DNA from: Bacteroidota bacterium
GTDB taxonomy: Bacteria > Bacteroidota > Bacteroidia > 2-12-FULL-35-15
Direction of reading: 5' to 3'
NCBI GenBank assembly: GCA_947447995.1
Contig: CANFLQ010000016.1
Location: 1-34,548, forward strand
Length of the DNA stretch: 34,548 nucleotides
In this document: piece by piece, positions 8,202 through 34,548 of the stretch
How positions within the stretch are numbered: position 1 is the stretch's first letter
How the letters are laid out: every line of letters begins with the position of its first letter
Made by a program: the position numbers and the translations under genes
Notes under the pieces: model-generated
The model's database searches: none
What the model was told of the DNA's origin: nothing
The model's input: the letters and a program-made list of their open reading frames with translations, nothing else

Positions 8202-8271
8202 TTTAACGTTATGATAATTTAAAAAAACAATTAAAAAACAATTAAAAAACAGTTAAAATTTAATTCATCTT

Positions 8272-8913
8272 ATGACAATTTTAGATTTTATTAACGAAGA
8301 TGTATTAAAGATTATTGCGTCCATGGTGGCTGGTTCTATCATTGGTGCAGAAAGAGAATATAAAAGTAAAAATGCTGGCTTTAGAACCATTACTTTAATT
8401 ACTATCGGCGCTACATTATTTACATTGCTGTCAAATGAAATAGCTGGAGGCAAAGATTTTCACGTAGTAGGTAATATTGTTGTTGGTGTTGGCTTTTTAG
8501 GTGCTGGTGCTATTTTTAAGGAGGGTTCAAACATTTCAGGTTTAACTACCGCTGCAACAATATGGGTAAGTGCTGCCATTGGAATGGCTATCGGTTCGGG
8601 CGAATTTATTTTTGCTTTTAATACATTAATAGCTGTACTGATAATCTTATTAGGGTTTTCGGGAATACAATCTATTATAGATAAAAAAAATGCTGATAAA
8701 TATTATAAAATAACTGTTGAGAATAATACAGATTCGAACAAGATGATACAAAATTTTGTGGAACAATGTGCTTTAAAATCAAGGCAGGTAAATATGAGTA
8801 AGTTCGATAATAAACTTCTTTACACTTTAAAAATTTCAGGTGGAATACATAAACACGAGCGCTTTGAAATTTTACTTTCTGCTTCCAAGAAAATACTATC
8901 GTTTGATGTTTAA
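8272..8913 (+). CDS. MgtC/SapB family membrane protein
   Basis: 213 aa; MVAGSIIGAEREYKSKNAGFRTITLITIGATLFTLLS and GVGFLGAGAIFKEG...GLTTAATIWVSAAIGMAIGSG are hallmark MgtC motifs. Confidence 0.93.
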   Translation: MTILDFINEDVLKIIASMVAGSIIGAEREYKSKNAGFRTITLITIGATLFTLLSNEIAGGKDFHVVGNIVVGVGFLGAGAIFKEGSNISGLTTAATIWVSAAIGMAIGSGEFIFAFNTLIAVLIILLGFSGIQSIIDKKNADKYYKITVENNTDSNKMIQNFVEQCALKSRQVNMSKFDNKLLYTLKISGGIHKHERFEILLSASKKILSFDV

Positions 8914-24310: not shown

Positions 24311-25513
24311 ATGAAAAACAATAAAGTAGTACTAGCATTCAGCGGTGGTTTAGATACAACGTATTGTGCCATCTATCTAAACAAAATAAAAAACATGGAG
24401 GTGCATGCCGTACTTGTAAACACAGGCGGTTTTGGTGCTGAAGAGTTGAAAAAAATAGAAGAACATGCGTTTAAATTGGGTGTTAAATCATTCAAATGTA
24501 TTGATGATACTGACAATTTTTATAAGACCGTTGTTAAGTATTTAATTTTTGGAAATATATTAAAAAACAATACCTACCCACTTTCGGTAAGTGCGGAGCG
24601 CATTGCGCAAGCAATGGCAATTGCTAATTATGCAAAATTAATTGGTGCAACTGCCGTAGCGCATGGCAGTACTGGTGCTGGTAACGATCAGGTACGTTTT
24701 GATATGGTATTCAACATTGTTGTACCTAACGTTGAAATTATTACTCCTATCCGTGATATGAAATTATCGCGTGAAGCGGAAATTGAATTTTTGAAAGAGC
24801 ATGGCGTTGAAATGAATTTTGAGAAAGCTAAATACTCTATCAATAAAGGTATTTGGGGGACATCGGTAGGAGGCAAGGAAACATTAAAATCCAGAGAATA
24901 TTTACCGGAAGAAGCATTTCCTACACCTGTAACAAAACAAGGTTCAGAAGATGTAAGTCTTACTTTTGAAAAAGGAGAGTTGGTAGCAATTAACGATAAA
25001 AAAATGTCTTCTGTAGAGGCAATTTTAAAATTAAATGAGCTTGCTTCTGGTTATGGAATTGGGAGAGATATACATGTGGGAGATACCATTATCGGAATAA
25101 AGGGTCGCGTAGGTTTTGAAGCTGCGGCATCTATTGTAATCATCAAAGCACATCATTTGTTGGAGAAACATACCTTAACAAAATGGCAATTGTACTGGAA
25201 AGAACAATTGTCGGCTTGGTACGGAAACTGGCTGCACGAAGGTCAGTTCATGGATCCTACAATGAGAAACATTGAGAAGTTTTTAGAAGATACACAAACC
25301 AATGTAACTGGAAAAGTGTTTGTAACGCTGTATCCATACCGTTTTCAATTAAACGGCATTGAGTCGGAACACGATTTGATGTCGGCTAAATTTGGTAGCT
25401 ATGGCGAAATGAACAACGCTTGGACAGGTGAAGACGTAAAAGGATTCTCAAAAATATTTGGTAATCAAGTAGCAATTTATCATCAGGTAAATTCAACGCT
25501 TGAGAAAAAATAA
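24311..25513 (+). CDS. argG: Argininosuccinate synthase
   Basis: 400 aa; VVLAFSGGLDTTYCAIYL, AHGSTGAGNDQVRFD, SINKGIWGTSVGG. Confidence 0.95.
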   Translation: MKNNKVVLAFSGGLDTTYCAIYLNKIKNMEVHAVLVNTGGFGAEELKKIEEHAFKLGVKSFKCIDDTDNFYKTVVKYLIFGNILKNNTYPLSVSAERIAQAMAIANYAKLIGATAVAHGSTGAGNDQVRFDMVFNIVVPNVEIITPIRDMKLSREAEIEFLKEHGVEMNFEKAKYSINKGIWGTSVGGKETLKSREYLPEEAFPTPVTKQGSEDVSLTFEKGELVAINDKKMSSVEAILKLNELASGYGIGRDIHVGDTIIGIKGRVGFEAAASIVIIKAHHLLEKHTLTKWQLYWKEQLSAWYGNWLHEGQFMDPTMRNIEKFLEDTQTNVTGKVFVTLYPYRFQLNGIESEHDLMSAKFGSYGEMNNAWTGEDVKGFSKIFGNQVAIYHQVNSTLEKK

Positions 25514-25532
25514 ATTATTTACGTTTAACAAA

Positions 25533-26516
25533 ATGAAAAAAATTAAAATAGGAGTTGTTGGTGGTGCCGGTTACACAGGAGGAGAGCTCTTGCGTATATT
25601 GGTGAATCACCCGAATGCCGAAATTACTTTTGTACACAGCAAAAGCAATGCAGGTAATTTTATTTACGATACACATACCGACTTAATTGGCGATACCAAT
25701 TTAAAATTTACGGATACTTTGTCGGATGCCATTGATGTATTGTTTTTATGCACCGGACACGGCGAAGCAAAAAAATTTTTGTCGGAAAATAAAATTGATC
25801 CTAAAATAAAATTGATTGATCTGTCGCAAGACCACCGATTGAATTCGAAGAATTCTAATGTTGCAAATCCTTTTGTATACGGACTTCCTGAATTGAATCA
25901 TGCAGTAATCAAAGAAGCTAATTACATAGCAAATCCCGGTTGTTTTGCTACGTGTATTCAATTAGGATTATTGCCGTTGGCCGCAAATAATTTATTGAAC
26001 AACGATGTACATATTACGGCTACAACAGGTTCTACAGGTGCAGGGCAATCGTTGAGCGCTACTTCACATTTCAGCTGGAGACAAAATAATTTAAGCATTT
26101 ACAAGGCATTTGAACATCAGCATTTGGCGGAAATTGGACAAAGTTTAACTCAATTGCAAGCAAGCTTTACTAAGGATTTGAATTTTATTCCTTACCGTGG
26201 AGCATTCACGCGTGGTATCATGGCAACATTATATACTGAGTGTGATTTGAGTGTTGAGAAGATTCAAAAGTTGTACGAAGATTATTATGAAATACATCCA
26301 TTTGTAAACATCAGTAAAAATGCTATTGATTTAAAACAAGTAGTAAATACAAACAAGTGTTTGTTGCAAATACAAAAACATCATGGCAAAATATTAATCA
26401 CAAGTTGTATTGATAACTTACTAAAAGGTGCATCCGGACAAGCAGTTCAAAACATGAACCTTGCTTTTGGATTAGATGAAACAGCAGGATTAAAATTGAA
26501 AGCAAATTATTTTTAA
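25533..26516 (+). CDS. argC: N-acetyl-gamma-glutamyl-phosphate reductase
   Basis: Start MKKIKIGVVGGAGYTGGELLRILVNHPNAEI; catalytic ANPGCFATCIQLGLLPLA. Confidence 0.95.
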   Translation: MKKIKIGVVGGAGYTGGELLRILVNHPNAEITFVHSKSNAGNFIYDTHTDLIGDTNLKFTDTLSDAIDVLFLCTGHGEAKKFLSENKIDPKIKLIDLSQDHRLNSKNSNVANPFVYGLPELNHAVIKEANYIANPGCFATCIQLGLLPLAANNLLNNDVHITATTGSTGAGQSLSATSHFSWRQNNLSIYKAFEHQHLAEIGQSLTQLQASFTKDLNFIPYRGAFTRGIMATLYTECDLSVEKIQKLYEDYYEIHPFVNISKNAIDLKQVVNTNKCLLQIQKHHGKILITSCIDNLLKGASGQAVQNMNLAFGLDETAGLKLKANYF

Positions 26517-26528
26517 TAAAAAATAAAA

Positions 26529-27656
26529 ATGAAACTATTTGACGTATATCCCTTATTTGACATAGAACCGGTTAAAGCCGAAGGTTCAACAATATGGGAC
26601 AAAGATGGAGTGAAGTATCTTGATTTGTATGGCGGACATGCTGTAATTTCGATTGGGCATACACACCCACATTATGTAAAAAAAATAACGGAGCAATTAA
26701 ATGCCATTGCATTTTATTCCAATTCTGTTAAAATAAAAATGCAGGAAGAACTGGCTGATAAACTGGGTAAGCTTTCTGGTTATACCGATTATCAATTGTT
26801 TTTGTGTAACAGTGGTGCTGAAGCAAATGAAAATGCGTTGAAATTAGCATCGTTTCATAACGGACGTAAAAAAATTATCTCGTTCAGCAAAGCATTTCAT
26901 GGACGAACTTCCTTAGCAGTTGCAGCTACGGACGATGCAAAAATATGGGCGCCAGTAAACTTAACAGATAACATTGAAATACTTCCATTCAATGATGAGT
27001 CGGCATTTGAAAAGGCAATGGGCGATGATGTATGTGCTGTTATCATTGAAGGAATACAAGGTGTTGGTGGGGTTCAAATTCCAACAACTAATTTTTTGAA
27101 AAAGATAAAATCACTTTGTGAAAAACACGGAGCTGTTATGATTTTGGATGAAGTACAATCTGGTTACGGACGTTCAGGTAAATTTTTTGCGCATCAATAT
27201 GCTGATGTAAAACCTGATATCATATCGGTTGCAAAGGGTATGGGTAATGGATTTCCAGTGGGAGGTATTTTAATTACTCCACACCTTAAACCTAAACACG
27301 GTATGTTGGGTACTACATTTGGCGGAGCTTATTTGGCTTGTGCTGCTGCAATTGCTGTATTGGATGTAATTAAGGATGAAAATTTAATTGCCAATTCAGA
27401 AACAATGGGCAATTACATTATGAATGAATTGAAAAGCATTAAAGGTGTTAAAGAAGTTCGTGGGCTTGGATTAATGATTGGCGTTGAATTGGAAGAAGCT
27501 TGTGCTCCTATTCGTAATCAATTGTTATCGGAATACAAAATGTTTTTAGGATCTTCATCCGATAAAAACACCTTGCGAGTACTACCCGCATTGAATATAA
27601 AAAAAGAAGATATAGATAGTTTTTTAATTGCATTTAAAAGTGTTTTATCAAAATAA
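26529..27656 (+). CDS. argD: Acetylornithine aminotransferase family (class III, PLP)
   Basis: 375 aa; LFLCNSGAEANENALKLA, MILDEVQSGYGRSGKFFAHQ, PDIISVAKGMGNGFPVGG. Confidence 0.93.
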   Translation: MKLFDVYPLFDIEPVKAEGSTIWDKDGVKYLDLYGGHAVISIGHTHPHYVKKITEQLNAIAFYSNSVKIKMQEELADKLGKLSGYTDYQLFLCNSGAEANENALKLASFHNGRKKIISFSKAFHGRTSLAVAATDDAKIWAPVNLTDNIEILPFNDESAFEKAMGDDVCAVIIEGIQGVGGVQIPTTNFLKKIKSLCEKHGAVMILDEVQSGYGRSGKFFAHQYADVKPDIISVAKGMGNGFPVGGILITPHLKPKHGMLGTTFGGAYLACAAAIAVLDVIKDENLIANSETMGNYIMNELKSIKGVKEVRGLGLMIGVELEEACAPIRNQLLSEYKMFLGSSSDKNTLRVLPALNIKKEDIDSFLIAFKSVLSK

Positions 27657-27668
27657 TCAGTAAAAAGA

Positions 27669-28625
27669 ATGAAAATTTTTACATCCGTGAACGATGTCAC
27701 CAACATCGATGAAATAGTGAACGAGGCCTTGATGCTGAAAAAGGCCCCATACTCGTTTTCTCATTTAGGGAAAAATAAAACATTGGGAATGGTATTTATG
27801 AATCCTAGTTTACGTACCAGATTAAGTACGCAAAAAGCAGGTATGAATTTAGGTATGAATACCATGGTGATGAACCTTGATAAAGATGGCTGGGCATTGG
27901 AGATGAATGAAGGAGTGGTAATGAATGGAACAACGGTAGAACACGTAAAAGACGTTGCTGCTGTAATGTCGCAATATTGTGATATCATTGCTATTCGTTG
28001 TTTTGCACAAATGAAAAACAAGGAGGCTGATTACAGTGAAATGATCCTCAACCAATTTATTAAATATAGCACTGTACCTATTGTAAGTATGGAAGGTTCT
28101 ACTTTACATCCTTTACAAAGTTTGGCAGATGTTATTACCATGCGTGAAAACTGGACTAAGAAAACAAAACCAAAAGTGGTATTGACCTGGGGACCCCACA
28201 TTAAACCAATTGCTCAAGCGGTAGCCAATTCATTTAGTGAATGGATGTTAAAAACGGATGTTGATTTTACCATCACACATCCGGAAGGATATGAGTTAAG
28301 TGAAGATTTTACTAAAGGTGCTAAAATAGTTTACAACCAACAGGAAGCCTTGATAGATGCTGATTTTGTGTATATAAAAAATTGGTCGTGTTATAACGAT
28401 TATGCAAAAATACTGTGTGCCGATAGCAATTGGATGCTAACCAACAAAAAATTAGAAGTAACTAATAATGCAAAAATAATGCACTGCTTGCCTGTTCGCA
28501 GAAATTTAGAAGTAAGCGATGAGGTGCTGGATGGCGCAAATTCATTAATCTATCAACAAGCAAACAATCGTTTGTTTTCGGCACAAGCAGTTTTGAAAAA
28601 AATATTGGAAACAAATACGTTTTAA
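27669..28625 (+). CDS. argF': N-acetyl-/N-succinyl-ornithine carbamoyltransferase
   Basis: 318 aa; FMNPSLRTRLSTQKAGMNLGM, EGSTLHPLQSLADVITM, MHCLPVRRNLEVSDEVLDG. Confidence 0.92.
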   Translation: MKIFTSVNDVTNIDEIVNEALMLKKAPYSFSHLGKNKTLGMVFMNPSLRTRLSTQKAGMNLGMNTMVMNLDKDGWALEMNEGVVMNGTTVEHVKDVAAVMSQYCDIIAIRCFAQMKNKEADYSEMILNQFIKYSTVPIVSMEGSTLHPLQSLADVITMRENWTKKTKPKVVLTWGPHIKPIAQAVANSFSEWMLKTDVDFTITHPEGYELSEDFTKGAKIVYNQQEALIDADFVYIKNWSCYNDYAKILCADSNWMLTNKKLEVTNNAKIMHCLPVRRNLEVSDEVLDGANSLIYQQANNRLFSAQAVLKKILETNTF

Positions 28626-28634
28626 TTAGGTACA

Positions 28635-28705
28635 ACCTCGGCTGGGGTCAAAAGTTTATAGAATGCTGATTTAACTATAAACATACGACCCCGCAGGGGG
28701 CGAAC
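28635..28705. repeat. Compound palindromic element between argF' and argB
   Basis: GGGGTC-aaaa-GTTTATAG-13 nt-CTATAAAC-atac-GACCCC (28644-28692), extended by cctcggct / gcaggggg flanks. Confidence 0.85.
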
Positions 28706-28732
28706 AAAAAGATAGTATTGCACACTATACAA

Positions 28733-29527
28733 ATGAAAAAACTACAAATCATAAAAATAGGCGGAAACGTAATTGACAATCCTACGGAATTAGAAAAATT
28801 CTTATCTGATTTTTCTAAGGTAACCGATTTAAAAATATTGGTGCATGGTGGCGGAAAGGTAGCTACAGAGTTAGCTAAAAAGCTGGGCATTGAGCAGGAA
28901 ATGGTGAACGGCAGAAGAATTACAGATGCCGACACATTGAAAGTAACTACCATGGTGTATGCTGGTTTGATTAATAAACAAGTGGTGGCAGCAATGCAAA
29001 GCAAAGGTGTGAATGCAATCGGATTATCTGGTGCGGATGCAAATACCATCAAAGCAAGCAAACGCAAAGTAGTAGATATTGATTACGGTTTTGTAGGTGA
29101 CATTGAAAGTTCGGGAGTGAATGTAGAGATGATTTCTGTTTTTTTGGAGAATGGTATTACCCCTGTGTTTTCAGCTATTACACACAACGGAGCTGGACAA
29201 TTATTAAATACCAATGCCGATACTATTGCATCTGCATTAGCAGTAGCACTTTCAAAAAAATACGAAGTACAATTGAATTATTGTTTCGAAAAAAATGGAG
29301 TATTGAAAGATGTTGAAGACGATAATTCAGTAATAAATATTATAACCAAAGATTCATACAAACAACTATTAGCGGAAGGGGTTATTTTTAAAGGAATGAT
29401 ACCGAAGCTTGATAATTCTTTTGATGCTATTAAAAATGGTGTATCTGCTGTAATGATAGCTAATTCAAAAGATCTAATAAAAATAACAAATCAAAATGGC
29501 AACACAGGAACAAAGCTCATCGCTTGA
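28733..29527 (+). CDS. argB: Acetylglutamate kinase
   Basis: In frame with track ORF 28718; MKKLQIIKIGGNVIDNPTELEKFL, LVHGGGKVATELAKKLGI, NTNADTIASALAVALS. Confidence 0.93.
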   Translation: MKKLQIIKIGGNVIDNPTELEKFLSDFSKVTDLKILVHGGGKVATELAKKLGIEQEMVNGRRITDADTLKVTTMVYAGLINKQVVAAMQSKGVNAIGLSGADANTIKASKRKVVDIDYGFVGDIESSGVNVEMISVFLENGITPVFSAITHNGAGQLLNTNADTIASALAVALSKKYEVQLNYCFEKNGVLKDVEDDNSVINIITKDSYKQLLAEGVIFKGMIPKLDNSFDAIKNGVSAVMIANSKDLIKITNQNGNTGTKLIA

Positions 29528-30593
29528 CGCAAAAAAGTTAAGTCTGGTTACAGACGAATCGATAGAATTACTGAAACAGTTAATTCCAATTCCGTCGTTT
29601 AGTAAAGAAGAAAACGTAACGGCTGATTTGTTGCAAAAGTTCCTGAAATCGAAAGGTGTTACACCGTTTCGTATGATGAACAATGTGTGGGCGCGTAACA
29701 AACATTATAAAGACGGCTTACCAACAATTTTATTAAACTCGCATCACGATACAGTAAAACCAAATTCGGGTTATACAAAAAATCCGTTTGAAGCCATTGT
29801 GGAAGATGGTAAATTATTCGGCTTGGGAAGTAATGATGCTGGTGGTTGTTTAGTATCACTGTTGGCGGCATTCATGTATTTTTATGAGAAGGAAAATATG
29901 CCTTACAATTTTGTTTTTGCGGCTTCTGCCGAAGAAGAAATTTCAGGATTAAACGGCATTGAACTTATTTTACCCGAATTGGATAATGTTGAATTTGCAA
30001 TTGTTGGTGAGCCTACACAAATGCATTTGGCAGTTTCCGAAAAAGGTTTGATAGTGATGGATTGCACCGCTCACGGTAAATCCGGACACGCTGCACGTGA
30101 AGAAGGTGAGAATGCTATTTACAAAGCATTGACAGATATCAATTGGTTCATTACCTATAAATTTCCGAAAGTTTCCGAAACATTGGGCCCGATTAAAATG
30201 TCGGTTACAGTTATTCATGCAGGTTCGCAACACAACGTAGTGCCTGATAAATGTGAGTTTGTAGTGGATGTGCGTGTAACCGATGCTTACAAAAATCAAG
30301 AGATTTTTGACATCATCAAACAACATGTTACTTGTGATGTAAAACCACGTTCGTTACGATTAACACCATCTTCTATTAGTATGGATCATCAAATCGTAAA
30401 AGCAGGTTTAAAATTAGGACGTGAAACGTATGGTTCACCAACTACTTCCGACCAAGCCTTAATGAATTTCCCATCCTTAAAATTAGGCCCCGGATTTTCA
30501 GGCCGTTCACACACTGCCGATGAATTTGTTTTCCTTGACGAAATTAAAGAAGGTGTGGAGTTGTACGTGAAGATGCTGTCGAGTCTTTTGTAG
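29496..30593 (+). CDS. argE: M20 family deacylase (acetylornithine deacetylase type)
   Basis: 365 aa; LLNSHHDTVKP, FGLGSNDAGGCLVSLLAA, ASAEEEISGLNGIE, GEPTQMHLAVSEKGL; overlaps argB by 32 bp. Confidence 0.9.
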   Translation: MATQEQSSSLDAKKLSLVTDESIELLKQLIPIPSFSKEENVTADLLQKFLKSKGVTPFRMMNNVWARNKHYKDGLPTILLNSHHDTVKPNSGYTKNPFEAIVEDGKLFGLGSNDAGGCLVSLLAAFMYFYEKENMPYNFVFAASAEEEISGLNGIELILPELDNVEFAIVGEPTQMHLAVSEKGLIVMDCTAHGKSGHAAREEGENAIYKALTDINWFITYKFPKVSETLGPIKMSVTVIHAGSQHNVVPDKCEFVVDVRVTDAYKNQEIFDIIKQHVTCDVKPRSLRLTPSSISMDHQIVKAGLKLGRETYGSPTTSDQALMNFPSLKLGPGFSGRSHTADEFVFLDEIKEGVELYVKMLSSLL

Positions 30594-30892: not shown

Positions 30893-31327
30893 ATGATGTC
30901 AATGAAGTGTAAGTACGCTATTAAAGCCTTAATTAACCTTGCAGGTAATTACCAAAAAGGCTATGTGCATACAGCAGATATTGCAACAGAGGAGAATATC
31001 CCTAAAAAATTTTTGGAGCAAATATTATTGGATATGAAACATGCCAAAATTGTGAATAGCAAACAAGGAAGCAAAGGCGGATACTATCTTTTAAAAAATC
31101 CTAAAGAAGTTTCGGTAGCTGATGTATATCGCGTTTTTGACGGTGCGATTGCTTTGCTGCCTTGTGTTTCACTTAATTTTTATGAAAAATGTGATGATTG
31201 TAAAGATGAAAAAGCCTGTTCGCTACGCCGCGAGTTCATTAAAATCCGTGAAGGCTCAAGGCTAGTAATGAGTAAAATTAGCATTCAATCATTTTTAAAA
31301 CCCAATAAAAAGTTGGTAAAAAAATAG
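30893..31327 (+). CDS. Rrf2 family transcriptional regulator with C-x8-C-x2-C-x5-C motif
   Basis: 144 aa; MKCKYAIKALINLAGNYQKGYVHTADIATEENIPKKFLEQILLDMKHAKIVNSKQGSKGGYYLLKNPKEVSVADVYRVFDG, then CVSLNFYEKCDDCKDEKAC. Confidence 0.95.
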   Translation: MMSMKCKYAIKALINLAGNYQKGYVHTADIATEENIPKKFLEQILLDMKHAKIVNSKQGSKGGYYLLKNPKEVSVADVYRVFDGAIALLPCVSLNFYEKCDDCKDEKACSLRREFIKIREGSRLVMSKISIQSFLKPNKKLVKK

Positions 31328-31349
31328 TTCGCTATTTTTTTATGTATAT

Positions 31350-31370
31350 ATTCTACTTATTTGATAGAAT
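31350..31370. promoter_or_regulatory. Putative operator dyad (ATTCTA-N9-TAGAAT)
   Basis: Perfect 6-bp half-site inverted repeat 5 nt upstream of a TATATTTG box and just downstream of the Rrf2 gene. Confidence 0.45.
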
Positions 31371-31375
31371 TTATA

Positions 31376-31383
31376 TATATTTG
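31376..31383 (+). promoter_or_regulatory. Putative -7 box TATATTTG
   Basis: Matches TAnnTTTG; 27 nt upstream of the short CCNC ORF. Confidence 0.55.
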
Positions 31384-31409
31384 TAGCGAAATTTAAAACA
31401 AGAGTAAAA

Positions 31410-31472
31410 ATGTTGTCATTATTTTTATTAAAAAACTGTTGTAATTGCCTTATGGCATTGGTAGTTAATTAG
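31410..31472 (+). CDS. Putative cysteine-rich leader peptide (20 aa, MLSLFLLKNCCNCLMALVVN)
   Basis: ATG TTG TCA TTA TTT TTA TTA AAA AAC TGT TGT AAT TGC CTT ATG GCA TTG GTA GTT AAT TAG between promoter-like box and porin gene. Confidence 0.5.
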   Translation: MLSLFLLKNCCNCLMALVVN

Positions 31473-31554
31473 GAATGTATTGTTATATATTAACAATCCT
31501 CCACAAAAAAAATAAAATTTGACATTAAATTATTCAAACTAAAATTCAAGCAAC

Positions 31555-33009
31555 ATGAAAACTAAAAAATACACACTTACAATTATAACACTTACTTATT
31601 TTATCGTATCTGCAACAGCACAAACTAATGAGGATGTTTTAAACTTACTAATTCAAAAAGGTGCAATTACTCAGGCTGACGCCGATTCGTTAAGAGCAGA
31701 AAGTGCAATTAAAGAACAAGAAACACCAAAAGACAAAACATTTACCATTGGAGCCGAATTAAGAACGAGAGCTGAATACAGAAACGGATACAGAAATTTA
31801 ATACCTGCCAGCGATACTGCAGTCCCTGCATTCTTTACCAATCAACGTACACGATTATTGTTTACCTACGAGCAAAAAAACAAATTTATCTTACATACCT
31901 CCATTCAGGATGTGAGAGTTTGGGGACAGGCGGACCCTAGATCAAACAATGCTAGTTTACAAGTATTTGAAGCTTATGGCGAAGTGTTTTTTCCGAATCC
32001 AAAATTTTCGGCAAAACTGGGTAGACAAAAAATAGCTTTGGATAACCAACGATTATTTGCAGAAAATGATTGGAGAGTGAATGCAAATTCACACGATGCA
32101 GCCAATTTCAAATATTCCGGAGACAAATTATCCTCTGAATTAATCTTTGCCTTTAACCAAACATCCAGCAATAACGGACAGGTTAATCAACCCAATGGAG
32201 AACCATTATTTGGCACCACCTATAATCCGGGATTTACCACTTACAAAACCCTAGCCGTTCATTATCTAAAATATAAAATAAGTGATGCTTTTACATTAAC
32301 CACGATCAATGCCGCGGATGGCTACCAAAAACCATTATCGAGAGAAGGTATTTATCAACGTTATACAGATGGTGGACGATTGGATTTTGAAAAAGGTAAA
32401 ATTTATGTCACATTCAGCGGATATTATCAATCGGGTACAAACAGCACAGGAACCAATATCAATGCGTGGTATCTTCAACCGGAGGTAAAATATAACAACC
32501 CTGATAATCTAAGCATTCGCTTAGGAGCAGAGGTATTCAGCGGCAATAATGGAGAAAAACCAAGTGCTTCGGATCATAACTTTGTTCCTTTGTATGGTGT
32601 AGCACATCGTTTTAACGGGAATATGGACTTTTTTACCACTTTCCCCGGTGATTTGAATAATGCAGGATTGATAAACCCTTATTTGTTTTTTACGAAAAAT
32701 GCAGGAAAAAAAGTTCAATTCAGATCCGACTTCCATTTGTTCCTATCAGAAAACAATTTTGTAAATGCTGTTAAGTACAACAAAAAGACAATACCTGAAA
32801 CGATCAACCCTTATCTTGGATACGAAAACGACTTGGGTGTAGTATTTACCCCTAAATCCTACATAAAAATTGACTTAGGATTTTCTTATGCAATTGCCAA
32901 ACAATCGATGGCAATCATAAAAAAAGGCGGAAATGCAGACTATACACCCACTTGGGCATACGTTTCGGTTACATTTAAGCCACAACTATTCAAATCAATA
33001 TTCAAATAA
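31555..33009 (+). CDS. Outer-membrane beta-barrel porin (alginate-export / OprO-like)
   Basis: 484 aa; signal peptide ending ATAQ, N-terminal DVLNLLIQKGAITQADADSLRAE segment, alternating beta strands, KLGRQKIALDNQRLFAENDWR. Confidence 0.85.
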   Translation: MKTKKYTLTIITLTYFIVSATAQTNEDVLNLLIQKGAITQADADSLRAESAIKEQETPKDKTFTIGAELRTRAEYRNGYRNLIPASDTAVPAFFTNQRTRLLFTYEQKNKFILHTSIQDVRVWGQADPRSNNASLQVFEAYGEVFFPNPKFSAKLGRQKIALDNQRLFAENDWRVNANSHDAANFKYSGDKLSSELIFAFNQTSSNNGQVNQPNGEPLFGTTYNPGFTTYKTLAVHYLKYKISDAFTLTTINAADGYQKPLSREGIYQRYTDGGRLDFEKGKIYVTFSGYYQSGTNSTGTNINAWYLQPEVKYNNPDNLSIRLGAEVFSGNNGEKPSASDHNFVPLYGVAHRFNGNMDFFTTFPGDLNNAGLINPYLFFTKNAGKKVQFRSDFHLFLSENNFVNAVKYNKKTIPETINPYLGYENDLGVVFTPKSYIKIDLGFSYAIAKQSMAIIKKGGNADYTPTWAYVSVTFKPQLFKSIFK

Positions 33010-33065
33010 CATTTTTTTATAACAAATATTTATACTAACTTTATCGACTTAATAGAATATAGAAT

Positions 33066-34028
33066 ATGAAAACAAATTATAAACTAGTTATCGGAGTCTT
33101 GATAGGCTTTATAACACTTACATCAGGCACAGTAATTAAAAAAGCACCACCTATTGATTTAGAAGGAAACATAAGCATTTCAGGAGCTTTTGCATTGTAT
33201 CCCATAGCCGTAAAATGGGCTGAGGAATTTAAAAAAATTCACCCAAAGGTAAAAATTGATATTTCGGCAGGTGGTGCAGGTAAAGGAATCACCGATGTTT
33301 TATCTAAAGTTACAGACATAGGATTAGTATCACGAGATCTGAATCCGGAAGAAGCAAAAAAAGGTGCATTTCCAATTGCTGTAACCAAAGATGCTGTTAT
33401 TCCTACAGTTAGCGCTATTAATCCCTATTTAGCTGAATTAAAAACCAAGGGCGTAAAAAAGGATGCACTAAATAATATCTTTATCACCGGAAAAATAAAA
33501 TTCTGGAATCAGTTAGGATTTAAAAGTGCTGCTCCAATTCATGTTTATACCCGTTCAGACGCCGCAGGCGCTGCTGAAACATGGGCAAAATATTTTGGCA
33601 AAAAACAAGAAGACCTACTAGGTGTTGCTGTATACGGCGATCCGGGACTTGCAACTGCTGTAAAAAAAGATCCGGGAGCTATTGGCTACAACAACATTGT
33701 TTATATTTATGATTCAAAAACTAAAAAGGCAACAAACGGAATCGTTGTATTACCAATTGACCTCAACAATAATGGGAAAATTGATGCGGATGAAAATTTT
33801 TATGATAATGTTGATCAATTGATAGCTGCAATTGTTGCAGGTAAATATCCTTCACCTCCGGCACGTGACTTATATTTTGTTACAAAAGGGAAACCTCAAA
33901 ATCCAATTGTTATAGAATTTACAAAATGGATATTAACCGAAGGACAAAAATATGTGAACGAAGCGGGTTATATAAAATTGTCGGATGAAAAACTAACCGC
34001 TGAAAAGGCAAAATTAGGTGCTAAATAA
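33066..34028 (+). CDS. PstS-like periplasmic solute-binding protein (divergent ligand site)
   Basis: 320 aa; NISISGAFALYPIAVKWAEEFKKIHPKVKIDISAGGAGKGITDVLSKVTDIGLVSRDL... and IHVYTRSDAAGAAETWAKYFG... GAIGYNN. Confidence 0.88.
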   Translation: MKTNYKLVIGVLIGFITLTSGTVIKKAPPIDLEGNISISGAFALYPIAVKWAEEFKKIHPKVKIDISAGGAGKGITDVLSKVTDIGLVSRDLNPEEAKKGAFPIAVTKDAVIPTVSAINPYLAELKTKGVKKDALNNIFITGKIKFWNQLGFKSAAPIHVYTRSDAAGAAETWAKYFGKKQEDLLGVAVYGDPGLATAVKKDPGAIGYNNIVYIYDSKTKKATNGIVVLPIDLNNNGKIDADENFYDNVDQLIAAIVAGKYPSPPARDLYFVTKGKPQNPIVIEFTKWILTEGQKYVNEAGYIKLSDEKLTAEKAKLGAK

Positions 34029-34037
34029 AATAGTTGA

Positions 34038-34548
34038 ATGAAAAATTTACGATTAACAATTGACAAAATAACAGGGAATGTATTTTTAATATTTACCTTA
34101 CTTGCTACCGTCACCGTTATACTCATTGGAGCCGGCTTGTATTACAAGTCGGCTCCGATATTACACAGTAATTCCTTAAGTAGTTTATTACTTTCTGCCG
34201 AATGGAAGCCCTTTAAATCATCGTTCGGTTTTCTTTCCTACATCGCCGGAACCTTATCAATTACTGCTATTGCAATTATTATAGCCTTACCTATTTCGCT
34301 ACTTACGGGTATTTACCTTTCGGAATATGCGCATGCAAAAGTAAAAAGAGCTCTCCTGCCCCCTATCGATTTATTATCCGGCATCCCACCGGTTATTTAT
34401 GGAGTATGGGGAGTATTGATAATTGTACCTTTTGTTCAAGAAAAAATAGCTGTGCATTTTGTAGAATTTTCATCGGGTTACAGCACACTTGCTGGAGGCA
34501 TTGTATTAGCTATTATGATCATCCCATTAATCATTAGTATTTTATTAG
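34038..34548 (+). CDS. PstC-like ABC transporter permease, 3' end outside window
   Basis: MKNLRLTIDKITGNVFLIFTLLATVTVILIGAGLYYKS...LSITAIAIIIALPISLLTGIYLSEYA...LSGIPPVIYGVWGVLIIVPF...AIMIIPLIISILL; open to window end, absent from the ORF track. Confidence 0.9.
   Translation, partial: MKNLRLTIDKITGNVFLIFTLLATVTVILIGAGLYYKSAPILHSNSLSSLLLSAEWKPFKSSFGFLSYIAGTLSITAIAIIIALPISLLTGIYLSEYAHAKVKRALLPPIDLLSGIPPVIYGVWGVLIIVPFVQEKIAVHFVEFSSGYSTLAGGIVLAIMIIPLIISILL

Follow-up and report, generated by a model that had tools for sequence, protein, structure and literature searches.

The phosphate transporter PstSCAB, whose components are recognized by the models TIGR02136 and TIGR00975 (PstS) and TIGR02138 (PstC), shares its fold, its gene order (pstS-C-A-B), and its porin partner with a transporter locus that we analyzed in a 34,548-base contig (C16, hereafter the window) of a 3.08-Mb Bacteroidota assembly of 207 contigs; the relatives compared with it are also Bacteroidota. 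The locus fills the right end of the window (30893 to 34548), where an Rrf2 gene with four Cys codons, a dyad and a promoter with the box TATATTTG, a leader open reading frame (ORF) containing CCNC, and genes for a porin, a PstS-like protein, and a PstC-like protein all lie on the plus strand. An earlier note, made from the bare sequence, had listed these co-oriented elements, and all are present as it described them. Unlike PstSCAB, the system has a PstS that scores under the PstS cutoffs and has lost its site hydroxyls, and the operon is without phoU and is linked to cys genes, an Rrf2 gene, and a Cys leader. On the genomic evidence presented below, it very likely encodes a sulfate importer that is assembled from PstSCAB-family components, induced by sulfur starvation, and placed under dual sulfur control, by Rrf2 and by the leader; sulfate as the ligand, the binding of Rrf2 and its sign, and the action of a transporter leader without a terminator are the parts of this reading that we infer.

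Other known systems resemble single aspects of the locus. The CysPTWA sulfate/thiosulfate ATP-binding cassette transporter and the SulP permeases share the proposed substrate and the link to cysHDN, but the transporter proteins here are unrelated to them or only distantly related. CymR, IscR, and NsrR have the Rrf2 fold, and CymR controls cysteine metabolism, but the Rrf2 protein here scores far under their cutoffs and has its own four-Cys spacing. Cys-codon leader attenuators include the polycysteine leaders of mycobacteria (Canestrari et al. 2020, cited in PMC9031893), and another Cys-codon leader, uORFC-8-2, lies ahead of cysS in Rhodobacterales (PMC8632094). In both, Cys codons cluster in a short ORF that precedes Cys-related genes, whereas the leaders reported here are in Bacteroidota, also precede a transporter, occur with an Rrf2-type dyad, and are terminator-less at the transporter; the cysHDN leader has the terminator/antiterminator form of a Cys-codon attenuator. 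Our searches of the open-access literature, which leaves out most subscription journals, turned up no prior account of a Pst-type sulfate importer or of such a leader in Bacteroidota.

The operon and its linkage to sulfur genes

The operon continues beyond the window, the end of which severs pstC. The earlier note had proposed a downstream search for pstA- and pstB-like genes, and these were found in the same assembly and in relatives. Contig C173 (locus L029) encodes a PstS with 98% identity and, after it, PstC, PstA, and PstB; the two copies (C16:33066-34548 and C173:1-3986) are probably strain variation in the assembly and not a duplication. A genome of the same genus (G008), as well as G029 and G035, has porin-pstS-C-A-B without phoU. 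The second, canonical pst operon about which the note had asked is also present: contig C28 of the same genome carries a separate porin-pstS-C-A-B-phoU operon, and its PstS has the usual GSDT, GGGSGVG, and RESSSGT motifs.

A scan limited to a single genome for each species yielded 80 named loci; the counts of linked genes are over 83 loci. PhoU had zero matches across all 83, and 61 of them had a porin or outer-membrane gene no more than 4 kb from pstS. In Bacteroidales relatives, pstB runs directly into cysH, cysD, and cysN, in varying order (L055, L057, L066, L075, L077, L080, L088, L089, and L103), and in L082 cysH and cysD are present before the contig ends. Representative CysH, CysD, and CysN proteins exceed their curated cutoffs. 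Judged by sequence resemblance, genes like that of sulfite reductase come after pstB (L092) or after the cys genes (L089), and a siroheme-synthesis-like gene adjoins pstB in L054 and L058 (the family was confirmed with Pfam in L148). The transporter of L148 is divergent from sir-cobA-cysG-cysH-cysD-cysN, and homocysteine synthase is encoded just upstream of the transporter in L063 and L064. The cys genes that the earlier note had proposed to look for do adjoin the transporter in relatives; cysDHN are within 9 kb in 11 of the 83 loci, and any sulfur gene is within 10 kb in 18.

Among 148 genomes drawn evenly from the phylum, 7 have the transporter. CysD scored above its cutoff in 5 of these 7 versus 45 of the 141 others, and in all 13 transporter genomes of the first test. 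Rrf2 is encoded directly upstream of the transporter in four members of the even sample (the window, L146, L147, and L151). A peroxiredoxin gene recurs beside the Rrf2 gene or within the transporter operon (L034:6602-7234, L156:212-847, L061, L076, and L083).

Rrf2, the dyad, and the Cys-codon leaders

The regulator matches the Pfam Rrf2 family with 111.9 bits (cutoff, 30) and misses the equivalog cutoffs of CymR (69.2 of 195 bits), IscR (68.3 of 207.55), and NsrR (25.6 of 182). Its cysteines are arranged as C91-x8-C100-x2-C103-x5-C109, a motif kept among the aligned homologs save for one Cys in one row, and plausibly hold an Fe-S cluster. The synteny between Rrf2 and the transporter, which the note had proposed to test, is conserved: an Rrf2 gene is within 4.5 kb in 34 of the 83 loci, although the genome of the window has a single Rrf2 gene. 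Rrf2 homologs adjoin the transporter or a cys operon in 8 of 9 genomes. The G008 ortholog (84%) is not at the transporter; it adjoins the sulfite reductase gene of the cys cluster, with one opposite-strand gene between. Homologs are immediately upstream of sir-cys in G147 and G056 (the latter placed from coordinates), and in four Flavobacterium genomes the transporter and the cys locus each have an Rrf2 gene of their own. By shuttling in this way between transporter and cys loci, the regulator is tied to sulfur.

The dyad is just upstream of TATATTTG, which is conserved in relatives and is the sole such −7 box between 30501 and 32000. We scanned 13 transporter genomes for the strict pattern CTACT-N6-ATAGA-N3-9-ATATTTG, with the reversed pattern as the control. 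The strict pattern occurred exactly once in 10 of the 13 genomes, and the control occurred in none. By coordinates, in all ten it is directly upstream of the transporter operon, and where Rrf2 adjoins, it falls between Rrf2 and the operon. Since the dyad was absent, in a lax scan, from the cys operons examined, it seems confined to the transporter. In Bacteroidales loci with a divergent Rrf2 gene, the shared intergenic region carries another palindrome, GTTAAGTATTAATAC(C/T)TAAC. The dyad may be bound by Rrf2.

In this organism, the anatomy of the cysH-cysD-cysN operon on contig C148 of the same genome (L138:37-172) lends good support to Cys-codon attenuation of the sulfate pathway. Its Cys leader, MIINIQNKKCCDIACCMLNSEGLLLS, has CC codons, and the cysHDN operon of G008 (L139, about 8250 to 8392, minus strand) also has a Cys leader, with the same terminator/antiterminator anatomy. 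In both, a hairpin of about −15 kcal/mol and the U run behind it form the terminator, and the end of the leader is overlapped by a competing antiterminator, the textbook attenuator form (z-score, −3.5).

The leader of the transporter, MLSLFLLKNCCNCLMALVVN, has its Cys codons at 31437-31442 and 31446-31448. An Rfam scan of the leader region gave no credible family, and covariation gave no support to the hairpin of the Flavobacterium leaders, the stem of which is invariant. It could be argued that this 20-amino-acid ORF arose by chance and that Rrf2 alone controls the operon. The ORF is short, the fold of the region is not significant (z-score, −1.1), no intrinsic terminator with a U-tract follows the transporter leaders, including that of the window, save one weak candidate in L089, and G029 (L033) has no clear leader. 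However, short ORFs with at least three Cys in six residues are upstream of 13 of 73 related operons versus 2 of 347 control intergenic regions (shuffle mean, 0.6), and both of these control regions are themselves in sulfur/transporter loci. "MC" within the last seven residues is found in 18 of the 73 versus 3 of the 347. Flavobacterium leaders end, at the same place, in MCPRA or in an MC cluster (CMCMC), the leader of G008 ends in CCICLLAY, and that of G035 ends in CCCSCIA; the in-frame hairpin TGC CNN NNG GCA is common to the window, G008, and Flavobacterium. With a full attenuator also present at cysHDN of the same genome, we consider a chance ORF unlikely. The features of the locus are collected in Table 1.

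Leader ORFs of a related type (..CCC..RMRMC[SI]) are found ahead of the homocysteine synthase gene of L064 and of the transporters of L060 and L070. In a Flavobacterium sequence (L142:16-102), a leader-like ORF ending in MICANAIMCIHVC is upstream of a metX-like gene in a methionine biosynthesis cluster, which suggests that Cys/Met leaders serve other parts of the sulfur regulon as well.

Table 1. Features of the transporter locus in the window
Feature	Position	Strand	Basis
Rrf2-family regulator, 144 amino acids	30893..31327	+	Pfam Rrf2; sole Rrf2 of genome; Cys motif
Dyad CTACT-N6-ATAGA, candidate Rrf2 operator	31353..31368		Strict dyad-plus-promoter pattern
Bacteroidota-type −7 box TATATTTG (TAnnTTTG)	31376..31383	+	Sequence; kept in relatives
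Cys-rich leader ORF MLSLFLLKNCCNCLMALVVN, 20 amino acids	31410..31472	+	Leader enrichment; conserved architecture
Small hairpin TGCC-TTAT-GGCA inside leader	31446..31457	+	In frame, TGC CTT ATG GCA
Second hairpin AGGA...TTGTTA-TAACAA...TCCT after leader, without U-tract	31471..31500	+	Fold
Outer-membrane porin, 484 amino acids, Alginate_exp-like	31555..33009	+	PF13372 (35.3 bits; cutoff, 25.2)
PstS-like substrate-binding protein	33066..34028	+	PF12849; signature GAFALYP / GGAGKG / RSDA[CAS]GA
PstC-like permease, partial, broken off by contig end	34038..34548	+	TIGR02138, 130 bits on partial protein

The genes immediately upstream of the locus (window, 24311-30593) form a cluster for arginine biosynthesis and show no evident link to the transporter operon. 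The cluster contains argC, argD-like, acetylornithine carbamoyltransferase-like, argB, and ArgE/DapE deacylase genes, and 24311-25513 resembles argG by sequence alone.

The ligand site and the substrate

The PstS-like protein matches PF12849 above the cutoff (132.8 bits) and fails both curated PstS cutoffs (TIGR02136, 124.2 of 206.6 bits; TIGR00975, 84.9 of 205 bits). Its signature (Table 1) was found in 24 of 24 relatives and in 0 of 21 canonical PstS proteins. This motif split is perfect, but the canonical rows join the tree on very long branches, and we do not claim that the PstS-like proteins are monophyletic with respect to canonical PstS. The structure model (predicted local distance difference test score, 86.5) has the type 2 periplasmic binding protein fold of PstS; its best matches in the PDB are phosphate-binding proteins, and molybdate-binding proteins rank lower.

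Ser/Thr and Arg residues of the type found in the PstS site take part in phosphate binding (PMC12421899). We aligned 41 homologs and compared the site with that of 4gd5 and 4q8r and with the canonical PstS of the same genome. The phosphate-site hydroxyls are replaced: Ser-Thr-Ser by Ala-[Phe/Trp]-Ala, a Ser by Ala71, a Ser by Cys, Ala, or Ser at position 167, and a Thr by Ala169. Ala41, Ala43, Ala71, and Ala169 are invariant in all 41 homologs, and Ser89 is retained. The altered ligand site noticed in the window thus extends throughout the PstS-like family. These changes fit a different oxyanion; alone, they do not pinpoint sulfate.

That the operon encodes a second phosphate transporter, near sulfur genes by chance in some species, would agree with the fold and the closest solved structures, with the Porin_O_P ("phosphate-selective") porins that accompany many relatives, and with the Arg and Asp kept in the site. 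But the genome already has its pst-phoU operon and the transporter loci have no PhoU, the protein scores under every PstS cutoff and has lost the site hydroxyls family-wide, and linkage to cys genes and Cys leaders is recurrent; we regard this explanation as very improbable. The proposal of a sulfur-linked substrate rather than phosphate is instead supported by the cys linkage, the Rrf2 synteny, the second pst-phoU operon, and the altered site. Of the outcomes that the note had named as refuting, none turned up, in an analysis that included no search for PhoB boxes and no binding measurement. Within the range first offered, sulfate, thiosulfate, or another oxyanion, sulfate stands out as the most probable, since the linked genes serve to activate and reduce sulfate. 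Import of a different oxyanion of sulfur or of a metal, for example thiosulfate, molybdate, or tungstate, has equally little probability: the altered site leaves the ligand unspecified and molybdate-binding proteins do appear in the fold search, but the linked genes speak for sulfate and no molybdenum genes were noticed beside the transporter.

Sulfate uptake in transporter genomes and implications

Four observations weigh against a sulfate importer. Adjacency to cysHDN is limited to a minority of loci (11 of 83); 2 of the 7 sampled transporter genomes are without CysD, though they have genes of the 3′-phosphoadenosine-5′-phosphosulfate reductase family; the PstS site keeps its Arg163 and Asp165; and a SulP protein occurs in 18 of 19 transporter genomes, so that sulfate uptake does not obviously need the transporter. 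That the transporter replaces SulP was, by the same count, mostly rejected. The SulP of G056 is a fragment only, and in a survey of SulP, DASS, and CysT/W, which did not extend to CysZ or PiT-type CysP, this genome had no DASS and no CysT/W above the cutoff, yet CysD is present. No CysT/W-family permease exceeded the TIGR00969 cutoff in any of the 19 genomes. Given SulP in 18 of 19 genomes and only a fragment in G056, the transporter probably serves most species as an extra importer that can be induced.

If the locus is a sulfate importer, sulfate would cross the outer membrane via the porin, be captured by the PstS-like protein, and be pumped inward by PstC, PstA, and PstB, to feed CysDN, CysH, and sulfite reductase and yield cysteine. 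Rrf2 would sense Fe-S or cysteine status via its four cysteines and, bound under sulfur sufficiency to the dyad overlapping the promoter, would block it. When charged Cys-tRNA is scarce, ribosomes would stall on the Cys-rich leader, changing the RNA structure and allowing expression of the operon; at the transporter leader, the output step may be translation coupling or Rho. We lean, by a narrow margin, toward a broader claim: that a distinct class of sulfate importers exists inside the PstSCAB family, across Bacteroidota and beyond, controlled jointly by Rrf2 and a terminator-less Cys-codon leader that acts by translational coupling or Rho.

The locus would be a case of a transporter family switching anions in which only a few site residues need be tested, and two independent sulfur sensors, Rrf2 and the Cys leader, appear to act on a single operon. 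Such genes would be annotated as phosphate transporters by default. If they do carry sulfate, inventories of phosphorus cycling in Bacteroidota would be inflated, and a route of sulfate uptake would have been overlooked.

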